64,000 nucleotides of DNA from Pelagibacteraceae bacterium AG-325-E08. Its GTDB lineage: Bacteria; Pseudomonadota; Alphaproteobacteria; Pelagibacterales; Pelagibacteraceae. Where the stretch lies: the NCBI GenBank assembly GCA_003282985.1, contig QBYE01000001.1:1-64000 (forward strand), read 5' to 3'. This document shows positions 44,805 through 49,830 of this stretch, piece after piece (position 1 is the first letter of the stretch; each line of letters opens with the position of its first letter). The notes under the pieces were generated by a model, which had not been told where the DNA came from, searched no databases, and was given only the letters and a program-made list of their open reading frames with translations. The position numbers and the translations under genes are program-made.

Positions 44805-45380
44805 CTATTTTTTTTCTGGTGTCTTTTCAAGTTTTTTTTCTGCTTTAATTTCAGCTTTAGGGGCATCTTTTTGAGACTCTTCCTTAACAGAATCATCTTT
44901 TTTAGCCTCTGAAGTCGGTGCAGTTTCTACTTTTATCTCAGCTTCATTTTCTTTAACTACTGGAGCTAAGTTTTCTTCGTTCACTGTTTCTGGTTTCACA
45001 TCCATATCGATACCAATTTTTTTTCTAATTTTCTCTGCAATCCTAGCTGATTTACCAGTTCTATCTCTTAAATAGTAAAGCTTAGCTCTTCTTACTTTAC
45101 CTGAACGGATTACTTTAATTGTATCTATTAAAGTTCCGTATAATGGAAAAGTTCGTTCTACACCCTCTCCAAAAGAAATTTTTCTTACAGTAAACGATGA
45201 ATTAAGATCTCTATTTTTTTTAGCAATGCAAACGCCTTCAAAATATTGGATTCTTTCTTTTTTACCTTCAGTAATTCTAACACCAACTTTTACAACATCA
45301 CCAGGATAAAATTCAGGAATTTTTTTCTCTGAAAGAATCTTTTTGACGTTATGCTGATTTATTTCTTCAATAGTTTTCAT
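44805..45380 (-). CDS. rplS: 50S ribosomal protein L19
   Basis: Large-subunit protein. The core is clear: [20 protein letters not shown] near residue 25 and [18 protein letters not shown] near residue 95. After about residue 115 comes a long tail of some 75 residues rich in E, K and A, so the protein is 191 residues against about 115 in E. coli. The ATG at 45380 is preferred to an upstream in-frame TTG at 45395, since the family starts with M-x-x-I-E-E. It lies downstream of trmD. Confidence 0.93.
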
Positions 45381-45396
45381 TTTAATATTTAACAAA

Positions 45397-46083
45397 TTAA
45401 TCTTTCTTATATTTTTGCCACAAATCTGGTCTTCGGTCGCGTGTTATAGCCTCTGATTGAGATAAACGCCAGTCTTTAATTTTAGCATGATCCCCAGATA
45501 ATAATACTTCAGGGACTGACTTTTCTTCCCAAATTTGAGGTTTTGTATATTGAGGGTACTCTAAAAGACCATTTTCAAAGGTTTCATCAATGGAAGATTT
45601 TTCATTTCCCAAAACCCCTGGCAAAAGTCTTAAAATACTATCAAGTACTACTAATGCAGCAGTTTCACCTCCAGACAAAACATAATCTCCTATACTTATT
45701 TCTTCAATATTCCTTGTTGTCAAAACTCTTTCATCTACCCCTTCGAAGTGGCCACAAATTAAAGATATTGATTTCTCTTTTGATAAGTCTTGAGCAAGTT
45801 TTTGATCAAATTTTTTACCTTTTGGTGAAAGATAAAAAACTCTTTCTCCCTTTTTTACTTTTTGGTCAAGAGAGTTTGCTAAAATATCTGCTTTAAGTAA
45901 CATTCCTGTTCCTCCACCATAAGGAGTATCATCGACTGTTTTATGTTTATCAGTTGCGGCATCTCTAATGTTTATTACGCTTAAGTTCCATAATTTATTA
46001 GACAAAGCTTTTCCATAAAGACCTTTTGCTAAAGGTCCAGGAAAAACTTCTGGATAAAGGGTAAATACTTGAGCTTGAAACAT
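45397..46083 (-). CDS. trmD: tRNA (guanine-37-N1)-methyltransferase
   Basis: SPOUT methyltransferase that makes m1G37 and prevents frameshifting. It has [20 protein letters not shown] near the start, [13 protein letters not shown] near residue 109, and [21 protein letters not shown] near 127, the SAM-binding knot. The ATG at 46083 is chosen over the in-frame TTG at 46089. At 228 residues it is normal. It starts 14 bases after the rpsP stop, so rimM, which usually lies here, is missing from the operon. Confidence 0.94.
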
Positions 46084-46097
46084 AAACAATCTTTAGA

Positions 46098-46553
46098 TTA
46101 TTTTTTTTCCTCTTTAGGAGCTTCTTCCTTTTTAGCTTCTGCTGCTGGTGCTGCGTCTGCTTTAGGAGCTTCTTCCTTTTTAGCTTCTGCTGCTGGTGCT
46201 GCGTCTGCTTTAGGAGCTTCTTCCTTTTTAGCTTCTTCAGATCCTTCTTTTTTTCTATCTTTTTTTGGAACTGCTTTTTGAGGATTATTTCCATTAGCAG
46301 GCATAGGCATTAATTCATTTTCACCTAAAATTCTTGCTACTCTTGTTGTTGGTTGCGCCCCTTGACCTAGCCAATATTTTATTCTTTCAGCCTCAAGTCC
46401 AATTCTTTCCTTTTTTTCTTTGGGAAGTAATGGATTGAAAAAACCTACTTTTTCAATAAACCTTCCATCTCTTGCAAAACGACTATCTGCTACAACTACT
46501 TTGTAAACTGGTCTCTTCTTTGTTCCACCTCTTGATAACCTTAACTTCAACAT
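46098..46553 (-). CDS. rpsP: 30S ribosomal protein S16
   Basis: Small-subunit protein. Residues 1-85 match S16 ([49 protein letters not shown]). The rest is an A, K, E, P-rich tail built of a 16-residue unit [16 protein letters not shown], present twice plus a partial third copy, bringing the protein to 151 residues compared with 82 in E. coli. It is the first gene of rpsP-trmD-rplS and lies 15 bases after ffh. Confidence 0.95.
46113..46236. repeat. 48-bp tandem repeat in the rpsP tail
   Basis: Identical 48-bp units begin at 46113, 46161 and 46209; the third breaks off at about 46236. Perfect DNA identity, not just protein similarity, points to recent duplication. Each unit codes for 16 residues, so gain or loss of a unit keeps the rpsP frame open. 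Confidence 0.92.
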
Positions 46554-46568
46554 TTACTCTCCTTTTTT

Positions 46569-47927
46569 TTATTTTAATTGATTAAATAATTCTGGTGGTA
46601 TTCCTTTATCAGACATACCTTTCAGATTTCCTTTAGACATCTTTTTCATCATTTCGGACATCATTTTAAATTGCTTTAGCAATTTATTGATAGTGGCTGG
46701 ATCTGTACCAGAACCATTAGCAATTCTTTTTTTTCGAGAACCATCAATTATTTTTGGATTCTCTCGTTCATTTTTTGTCATAGATAGAATTATTGCCTCA
46801 TTTTTTGTAATTACACTTTCATCTATACCTGCAGCATCCATTTGAGACTTAACTTTTGAAACCCCTGGCATAAAAGACATTACTCCTTCTATTCCACCCA
46901 TTTTTTTCATCTGTCGTAATTGAGTTAAATAATCTTGCATTGAAAATTGTCCTTTTTTTAAATTTTCTTCAGCCTTTTTAATATTTTCTTCACCAAGATC
47001 TTGTGCAGCTTTTTCTACAAGAGATACAATATCTCCCATTCCCAAAATTCTATTTGCAATTCTATCTGGATGAAATACTTCAAGATTTTCAATTTTTTCA
47101 CCTACGCCTAAAAATTTAATTGGAACTTGAGAAATAAATTTCATACTAACAGCTGCTCCGCCTCTAGCATCACCATCTGCTCTAGTTAAAATTATTCCTG
47201 ACAGATTTACTGTATTTTTAAATTCTTTTGCTACAGATGCTGCTACTTGTCCCGTAAGTGAGTCTGCAACCAAAAAAGTCTCTGCAGGATTAATTGTTTT
47301 TTCAATTTGTTTAATCTCACTCATCATTTGTAAATCAATCTGTGTCCTTCCTGCGGTATCAAATAATATAATATCAGCTCCATTTAAATTAGCGGCGCTT
47401 ATAGCTCTTTGACAAATATCAGCTGGCTGTTGGCCTTCAATTATAGGGAGAGTTAAAATATCATTTTGCTCACCTAAAGATTTAAGTTGTTCTTGAGCAG
47501 CAGGCCTATAAATATCTAAGCTAACCATCATAACTTTCTTTTTCTTAGTATTTTCTAAGTACCTTGCAAGTTTAGCGGTTGTAGTTGTTTTACCAGAGCC
47601 TTGTAATCCAACTAGCATCATTGGTACTGGAGGAACTGCATTAAGATTTACATCATTATTTTTTTCACCTAGCAAATTAACAAGCTCATCATAAACAATC
47701 TTAACCACCATATCTCCAGGTGATGTCGATCTTATTATTTCTTGTCCTAATGCTTTTGGTTTAACCTTTTCAACGAATTCTTTTGCAACATCTAGAGAAA
47801 CGTCAGCTTCTATTAAAGCTTGTCTAATACCTCTTAAGCCTTCATCGACTTGCTTTTCATCAAGAGAAGGTGCTTTTTTTAGAGAAGAAAAAATTTCTTC
47901 AAATTTATTTGTCAAATTTTCAAACAT
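46569..47927 (-). CDS. ffh: Signal recognition particle protein Ffh
   Basis: GTPase of the signal recognition particle, which takes nascent membrane proteins to FtsY. N domain (MFENLTNKFEEIF), G domain with GLQGSGKTTTTAKLARYL near residue 105, DTAGRTQIDLQM near 190 and TRADGDARGGAAVS near 250, then a methionine-rich M domain (KKMGGIEGVMSFMPG). The ATG at 47927 is chosen because residues upstream in the same frame show no homology. At 452 residues it is complete. It is preceded by a strongly structured leader. Confidence 0.95.
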   Translation of the reverse strand: MFENLTNKFEEIFSSLKKAPSLDEKQVDEGLRGIRQALIEADVSLDVAKEFVEKVKPKALGQEIIRSTSPGDMVVKIVYDELVNLLGEKNNDVNLNAVPPVPMMLVGLQGSGKTTTTAKLARYLENTKKKKVMMVSLDIYRPAAQEQLKSLGEQNDILTLPIIEGQQPADICQRAISAANLNGADIILFDTAGRTQIDLQMMSEIKQIEKTINPAETFLVADSLTGQVAASVAKEFKNTVNLSGIILTRADGDARGGAAVSMKFISQVPIKFLGVGEKIENLEVFHPDRIANRILGMGDIVSLVEKAAQDLGEENIKKAEENLKKGQFSMQDYLTQLRQMKKMGGIEGVMSFMPGVSKVKSQMDAAGIDESVITKNEAIILSMTKNERENPKIIDGSRKKRIANGSGTDPATINKLLKQFKMMSEMMKKMSKGNLKGMSDKGIPPELFNQLK

Positions 47928-47951
47928 ATTTATTTCACACAGCAGTAATCT

Positions 47952-48038
47952 CACTAGTGGGCGAACCCTCGCTGACTAGTGTCGATCTCTTTGTTTCCAA
48001 AGACACCGCAAATTTAACGTTTTTGCGGAAACTGGCCC
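47952..48038 (-). ncRNA. Structured leader RNA upstream of ffh
   Basis: The gap between ffh and dapF can fold into several perfect stems. Reading plus coordinates: CCGCAAA (48006-48012) with TTTGCGG (48022-48028); TCTTTG (47988-47993) with CAAAGA (47998-48003), closed on the minus strand by a GAAA tetraloop; CACTAGT (47952-47958) with ACTAGTG (47975-47981), enclosing a GCGA/TCGC stem. The GNRA loop exists only on the minus strand, which favours an ffh leader. The sequence lacks the conserved SRP RNA core. I recall a candidate structured RNA near ffh being reported in Pelagibacter, but I cannot confirm that this is it. On the plus strand TATAAT at 48043-48048 could serve dapF. Confidence 0.6.
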
Positions 48039-48088
48039 AAACTATAATAGAGGTTCAAAAAGTCAATAAATAAGTTAAATAACTATAT

Positions 48089-48913
48089 ATGGACATTAAA
48101 GCTTTTAAAATGGATGGATTAGGTAATGATTTTGTGATCATTGATAATAGAGAAAAAATTACAAACTTATCAAAAGATCAGGTTATTAAAATCTGTAACA
48201 GGAATTTTATTGGTTGTGATCAATTGATACTAATAGAAAAAGATAACACTACTGATGCTAGTTTAAAATTTTTTAATTCTGATGGAGGAGAATCTGGAGC
48301 ATGCGGAAATGGAACAAGATGTGTTGCTGATTTAATATCAAAAGAGAAAAATGATAGAAATGTGACACTAACGACTCAGTCCGGAATTTTAAAATCAGAA
48401 ATATTGGATAATAATCTTGTAATAACTGAAATTGGAAAAGCAAAAATAAATTGGAATGAAATTCCTCTTTCAAAAGAATCTGATACAAAAAATTTAAATA
48501 TTAAGATTAATGATTTAGATAATAAAGAATATTTAGGTGGTACTGCTGTAAATGTGGGGAACCCCCATGTTATTTTTTTTGTAGAAAAAATTGAAAACTT
48601 TGATGTTGGAAAAATTGGTCCAAAAATTGAGAGTCATGTTTTATTTCCGGAAAGATGTAACGTTACAATAGCTAAAGTAATTAATGAAAATCTAATAAAA
48701 GTTAAAGTTTGGGAAAGAGGTGCAGGTTTAACAAAGGCATGTGGAACAGCAGCTTGTGCAACAGCTTTTGCTGGTAAATTAAATAATTTAACCAAAAATA
48801 ATACAGATATAGAATTTGTTAATGGCAAATTATCAATTTTTATAGATGAAAAAAATTCTATTCATATGAAAGGCCCAGTCTCAGATATTAAGGAAATTTC
48901 AATAAAATTATAA
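48089..48913 (+). CDS. dapF: Diaminopimelate epimerase
   Basis: Converts LL- to meso-diaminopimelate for lysine and murein. It has MDGLGNDFVIID (residues 8-19), the two catalytic Cys in GESGACGNGTRC near residue 72 and TKACGTAACATA near 216, and GGTAVNVGNPHVIFF near 150. At 274 residues it is full length. It shares one base with ftsY downstream, which suggests coupling. Confidence 0.95.
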   Translation: MDIKAFKMDGLGNDFVIIDNREKITNLSKDQVIKICNRNFIGCDQLILIEKDNTTDASLKFFNSDGGESGACGNGTRCVADLISKEKNDRNVTLTTQSGILKSEILDNNLVITEIGKAKINWNEIPLSKESDTKNLNIKINDLDNKEYLGGTAVNVGNPHVIFFVEKIENFDVGKIGPKIESHVLFPERCNVTIAKVINENLIKVKVWERGAGLTKACGTAACATAFAGKLNNLTKNNTDIEFVNGKLSIFIDEKNSIHMKGPVSDIKEISIKL

Positions 48914-49830
48914 TGGGAATTTTTGATAAATTTAAAGAAGGTTTTCAAAAAAGTGCTTCCGCACTTTCGTCTGGCATTAAGGAAATAATTGTAAAAAAAA
49001 AAATAGATGATGAAAATTTAAATAAAATTGAAGAATTTTTAATTAAATCTGATGTAGGTATAGAAGCTGCCTCTGAGATAAAACAAATAATTTCAACTAA
49101 AAAAATTGATCCTTCAAAAGATTTATCTTTAGAAATAAATCTCATTTTAAAAGATTATATAATTTCTTTAATGAAACCCCTAGAGAACAAGTCTTTTTTC
49201 ACCAAAAAAGATAAATTAAATGCAACTTTAATTTCTGGTGTAAATGGTGTTGGTAAAACAACTACTATTGGTAAAATTGGTAAAATTTTAAAATCAAGTG
49301 GTAATAAAGTTATGTTTGCAGCCTCTGATACTTTTAGAGCTGCAGCTATTGAGCAATTAGAAAATTGGGCTAATAAAATAGATGTTCAAGTTATTAAATC
49401 ATCACAAGGTTCAGATCCAGCTTCAGTAGCGTATAAAGCCATCGAAGATGCATTAAAAAATAATTTTGATCAAGTTTTAATTGATACGGCAGGAAGACTT
49501 CAAAATAAAAAGAATTTAATGGAAGAATATAAAAAAATTGCAAATGTAACTAAAAAGATAGACGCTGAAGCACCACATGATGTTGTTTTAGTTTTAGACG
49601 CAACTTCAGGTCAAAATATAATAAATCAAGTCGAAGAGTTTAATAAAATTATTCCAATAACAGGTATCATAATGACGAAATTAGATGGAACTGCAAAAGG
49701 AGGTATTCTTTTAGCTTTAGCAAAGAAATATAAACTTCCTATTATTGCATTAGGATTAGGTGAAAAAGAAGATGACTTGCAAATATTTGAAGCAGAAAAA
49801 TTTGCAGATGCCTTCACTCAAACTGATTAA
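48913..49830 (+). CDS. ftsY: Signal recognition particle receptor FtsY
   Basis: Membrane-associated SRP GTPase that receives Ffh. The NG domains are complete: SGVNGVGKTTTIGKIGKIL near residue 112, DTFRAAAIEQLENWA near 140, DTAGRLQNKKNLMEE near 195, and TKLDGTAKGGILL near 255. At 305 residues it lacks the acidic A domain found in E. coli, as in most alphaproteobacteria. It lies divergent from ffh, with dapF between. The 3' end overlaps the convergent hypothetical gene by 4 bases. Confidence 0.95.
   Translation: MGIFDKFKEGFQKSASALSSGIKEIIVKKKIDDENLNKIEEFLIKSDVGIEAASEIKQIISTKKIDPSKDLSLEINLILKDYIISLMKPLENKSFFTKKDKLNATLISGVNGVGKTTTIGKIGKILKSSGNKVMFAASDTFRAAAIEQLENWANKIDVQVIKSSQGSDPASVAYKAIEDALKNNFDQVLIDTAGRLQNKKNLMEEYKKIANVTKKIDAEAPHDVVLVLDATSGQNIINQVEEFNKIIPITGIIMTKLDGTAKGGILLALAKKYKLPIIALGLGEKEDDLQIFEAEKFADAFTQTD

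Follow-up and report, generated by a model that had tools for sequence, protein, structure and literature searches.

Ribosomal-protein leader RNAs, such as the L19, L20, S15, and S4 leaders, are structured 5′ leaders of ribosomal-protein operons. The ffh RNA motif (RF01793) was found in Pelagibacter by Meyer et al. in 2009 (PMC2704228), who proposed a role in ffh regulation and reported no likeness to the Ffh-binding part of 4.5S RNA. The element described here is this motif, lying in a 64,000-nt window (the whole stretch of DNA analyzed) of a SAR11 genome in which it is present in single copy. RF01793 matches positions 47943 to 47996 on the minus strand at 50.4 bits, above the family cut-off of 35, and is the sole Rfam family matching the window at its curated cut-off; a preliminary description of the sequence had suggested a candidate element of Pelagibacter, and this was correct. 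The locus type, strand, bulged hairpin (H3), and conserved cytosines are those of the described motif. The Rfam record, however, covers 52 positions corresponding to H3 and the 3′ half of a second hairpin (H2), whereas our analysis adds H2 as a helix, a further hairpin (H1), and a fixed distance to a promoter, and in one bacterial order the element is followed by rpsP and not by ffh.

The element shares with the 4.5S SRP RNA (RF00169) a tie to ffh by name and position, but Meyer et al. (PMC2704228) report that this leader has no Ffh-binding domain. We reject its identity with 4.5S RNA, as the window has no RF00169 match at the gathering cut-off and the bona fide SRP RNA maps to a different contig. 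The only SRP RNA candidate in the genome (G000:C4:43859-43951) is full length and scores 34.3 bits, below the RF00169 cut-off of 40. The SRP RNA of another SAR11 genome, G003, is likewise below this cut-off, and two further SAR11 genera that were tested have SRP RNAs scoring above it.

The element occupies the intergenic region between the divergently oriented ffh and dapF genes, with ffh followed by rpsP, trmD, and rplS in one operon (Table 1). There is no rimM in this SAR11 operon, since trmD directly follows rpsP. We note that ftsY, coding for the SRP receptor, is at 48913 to 49830, directly after dapF, such that the SAR11 ffh/dapF intergenic region is flanked by both SRP protein genes. The GC content is raised locally, at 45% in 47950 to 48049 compared to roughly 21 to 39% nearby, although the earlier wording of "far above its surroundings" is strong.

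Table 1. Features of the ffh leader and its operon in the window
Feature	Position	Strand	Remarks
Intergenic stretch holding the element	between ffh start codon (47927) and dapF (48089)	ffh (-), dapF (+)	
-35 box TTGACT of leader promoter	48061..48066	-	TTGAC conserved upstream of element
Probable -10 region TAGTTT	48039..48044	-	spacer 16; read from the sequence and the fixed -35 distance
Hairpin H1, CCGCAAA/TTTGCGG	48006..48028	-	inner five pairs all changed on both sides; outer CC/GG overlaps H2 base
Hairpin H2, GGU.UCUUUG-GAAA-CAAAGA.AUC	47984..48007	-	all ten pairs changed on both sides (n=86)
Hairpin H3 (ffh motif core), CACUAGU/ACUAGUG + GCGA/UCGC	47952..47981	-	internal loop C47974-A47973 / C47960-C47959
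ffh	46569..47927	-	first gene 3′ of element
rpsP (ribosomal protein S16)	46098..46553	-	downstream gene common to all checkable motif loci
trmD	45397..46089	-	immediately 3′ of rpsP
rplS (ribosomal protein L19)	44805..45395	-	

RF01793 matches were found in 348 of 397 SAR11 genomes searched, with the position upstream of ffh verified in the loci that were read, and in 75 of 289 alphaproteobacterial genomes. Among 40 distinct SAR11 leaders that were aligned, both H1 and H2 are common to all and both show compensatory changes. A covariance model trained only on SAR11 sequences finds the element across other alphaproteobacterial orders. Its matches are full length in nearly all loci of a first set and in most rpsP loci of a second set that was fetched independently. 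In the alignment of 86 matches, 93.8% of cells pair and 24 of 26 pairs are changed on both sides; the covariation score is 0.472, whereas shuffles give 0.155 and slid controls no more than 0.089, noting that this alignment is fitted to the structure and leans toward it, but that most of its lineages are outside the model-building set. The preliminary description had pointed to at least three perfect stems within 87 bases, one of them with a GAAA tetraloop on the minus strand. Read on that strand, the stems at this place are CCGCAAA/TTTGCGG, TCTTTG-GAAA-CAAAGA, and CACTAGT/ACTAGTG with an inner GCGA/TCGC, and they go far beyond what is expected by chance. The alignments thus indicate an element larger than the Rfam record, consisting of a fixed -35 box followed by H1, H2, and H3.

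H3 has pairing in 100% of cells and changes on both sides in 9 of its 11 pairs across the 86 sequences. What had been taken as a bulge in the ffh motif is a near-invariant C·C (84 of 86) beside an A·C (window positions 47973 and 47960; alignment columns 151 and 165). Because a few sequences have G·U, C-G, or U-A in place of the A·C, part of this supposed bulge is probably a pair. An extension of H3 by AUCG/CGAU is weak, and we reject a closing helix (UUCC/GGAA) by which the ribosome site close to the AUG would be masked, as it is paired in 73% of cells and has no double changes.

The transcribed strand can be read from H3, where the minus strand has 27 G·U cells and no A·C, showing that the RNA is in the ffh sense. 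A plus-strand RNA directed toward dapF is rejected on the same count, despite the good folding of that strand relative to dinucleotide shuffles (z = -4.8, compared to z = -2.8 for the minus strand, with 3 of 200 shuffles equally good). Regulation of dapF is also unlikely, the nearest dapF found being kilobases away from the motif in several alphaproteobacteria. A leader peptide is unlikely as well: the 23-codon frame with a GTG start seen in the window is shifted by single-base indels that distinguish the H3 loops of different SAR11 families. In 83 of the 86 aligned loci (7% is expected in shuffles), TTGAC is present in the 90 nt preceding the element, mostly 28 to 32 nt before model position 1, although a generic promoter consensus scan did not report this leader promoter. 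From the usual promoter spacing the transcript is predicted to start at about 48031 to 48034, and the hairpins would therefore fill the extreme 5′ end of the mRNA.

The gene following the motif is most often ffh. Outside of a marine alphaproteobacterial order discussed below, ffh is the gene directly after the motif in 66 of 69 non-SAR11 genomes. In all 63 that have both ffh and rpsP on the contig, rpsP is encoded on the same strand 0.1 to 3.7 kb beyond ffh. Similarly, ffh lies between the motif and rpsP in 62 of 67 named, independently fetched loci, the remaining five belonging to the marine clade; these loci were fetched through S16, such that they test the position of ffh and not that of rpsP. 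Together with all of the SAR11 loci read, these positions are what favors the proposal of Meyer et al., shared by the preliminary description in tying the element to the SRP pathway, that ffh expression is set by the leader in response to Ffh or 4.5S RNA. We consider this quite improbable, both for the missing likeness to the Ffh-binding part of 4.5S RNA and for the fate of the element where the SRP proteins appear to have been lost.

The order in question is represented by 18 genomes labeled PS1, OCS116, or Hyphomicrobiales at NCBI, which may not be their true placement. In three of these (G445, G569, and G664) the motif precedes rpsP and not ffh, with dapF still on the other side; in this order both SRP protein genes are missing from the motif neighborhood. 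No gene scores above the cut-off for PF00448, the SRP54 GTPase family that includes Ffh and FtsY, in any of the 18 genomes, which are draft or single-cell assemblies, whereas the same search is positive in 14 of 14 control genomes. TIGR00959 (Ffh) is likewise not found in the three genomes of this order tested, although the same search of 75 genomes is positive for the remaining 72. These protein absences are strong, with many genomes, three of them at 95 to 97% completeness, and positive controls. SRP RNA (RF00169) was not found in eleven genomes of the order, but this absence is weaker, because 16S rRNA also escaped this tool in 8 of 10 genomes. The order thus appears to lack Ffh and FtsY, and its SRP RNA is undetected; loss of SRP in free-living bacteria would be notable in its own right, and we found no report of such a loss in the open-access literature searched.

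The motif is nonetheless present in 14 of the 18 genomes, exactly those 14 in which S16 was found, and a missing contig most simply accounts for the other four, which have neither. It is about 35 to 40 bases upstream of rpsP, and H3 has compensatory changes within the order; H3 is therefore under selection where no SRP proteins are detectable. The element does not occur only where SRP is detectable, and for this order an SRP-linked switch is already contradicted. The order also provides a natural test that separates a function in SRP from one in rpsP.

Considering all of the motif loci that could be checked, rpsP is the only downstream gene that they have in common, because ffh is absent in the marine clade, rimM is absent from the SAR11 operon, and neither trmD nor rplS is universal (of 58 rpsP loci, 10 have no trmD and 15 no rplS in the 5 kb that follow rpsP). 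Two motif loci (in G567 and G403) have no linked ffh or rpsP, and both score below the family cut-off. We therefore favor, at about an even chance, a leader that controls in cis the operon containing rpsP, probably through feedback by S16. The three hairpins at the extreme 5′ end of the ffh-rpsP-trmD-rplS mRNA would act in cis, and their conserved purpose would be control of this ribosomal operon and not of SRP. Free S16 would bind the leader, most likely through H3 with its C·C internal loop, and lower expression of the operon through either translation or transcript elongation; ffh, being the first gene in most lineages, would be regulated along with the rest.

In its several hairpins, its narrow phylogenetic range, and its place as a structured 5′ leader with a ribosomal-protein gene downstream in cis (rpsP in all motif loci that could be placed), the element resembles the ribosomal-protein leaders. 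It differs in that the first gene is usually ffh, with rpsP sometimes 2 to 3.7 kb downstream, and in that both the ligand and repression are predicted only. A low-power scan of the H3 strands against Escherichia coli 16S and 23S rRNA gave no match above shuffles, and therefore no mimicry of a binding site was found. The distance from motif to start codon varies, which also counts against an rpsP leader, and we found no conserved sequestration of the Shine-Dalgarno sequence.

The main rival to an S16-responsive leader is an independent, trans-acting small RNA made by processing of the leader or by early termination, which would have stayed beside rpsP when ffh was deleted. This same outcome is expected of any such RNA after loss of ffh, and it therefore weighs against reading the retention next to rpsP as evidence of a leader. 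The Rfam type of RF01793 is sRNA, Meyer et al. cite small-RNA metatranscriptomes (PMC2704228), and an "ffH leader RNA" is among the significantly expressed sRNAs in RNAseq of Bartonella bacilliformis (PMC7717549). Nevertheless, there is no terminator-like site between the element and ffh (in 47880 to 48140), and in the window only about 15 nt lie between the Rfam match and the ffh start codon. The element also keeps its operon context throughout, we met no free-standing copy above the family cut-off, and a separate small RNA is rather unlikely.

It is also unlikely that the leader serves the operon through a different ligand, whether L19, TrmD, RimM, or a general RNA chaperone or RNase for which it would be an mRNA stability element. 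L19, TrmD, and RimM are encoded in the same operon in many genomes, and S16 binding is itself only proposed. However, the absence of rimM from the SAR11 operon and the loci in which trmD or rplS is not near rpsP do not fit these three proteins, and the constant presence of rpsP downstream would be left unexplained by a general factor.

How an S16-responsive leader might switch is suggested by the CGG that closes H1 and also forms the base of H2. The base in common shows covariation with its partners in both hairpins, each pairing being standard in roughly three quarters of the sequences, and long forms of H1 and H2 competing for the CGG are a weakly supported candidate two-state design. It is a better switch candidate than the pairing of GTGTC with GACAC (47979 to 47983 and 48002 to 48006) that was suggested earlier as a competitor of the other stems; the positions given for that pairing were exact, but it has no compensatory change in the 40 SAR11 leaders, one pair is broken in 18 of the 40, and we reject it. 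That the ffh motif is the leader for feedback by S16 on its own operon in Alphaproteobacteria, acting through this exchange of CGG partners between H1 and H2, is possible but tentative. If true, it would be a first regulator of the rpsP-trmD operon, and it would explain how ffh comes under ribosome-linked control.

According to a 2024 review (PMC10931766), the trmD operon is a rare one among operons of ribosomal proteins in that its regulation is entirely unknown, and we found no statement linking the ffh motif to rpsP or S16 in the open-access literature. The Rfam family name points to SRP, and if the real target is the S16 operon, both this name and the sRNA label mislead annotation. The three-hairpin model provides experimenters with defined mutants. 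We note also that the 3′ part of rpsP in the window contains a perfect 48-base tandem repeat (2.6 copies, 46112 to 46236), giving S16 a C-terminal tail rich in Lys, Ala, Pro, and Glu; the S16 of G445, from the order lacking detectable SRP, has a similar repetitive tail.
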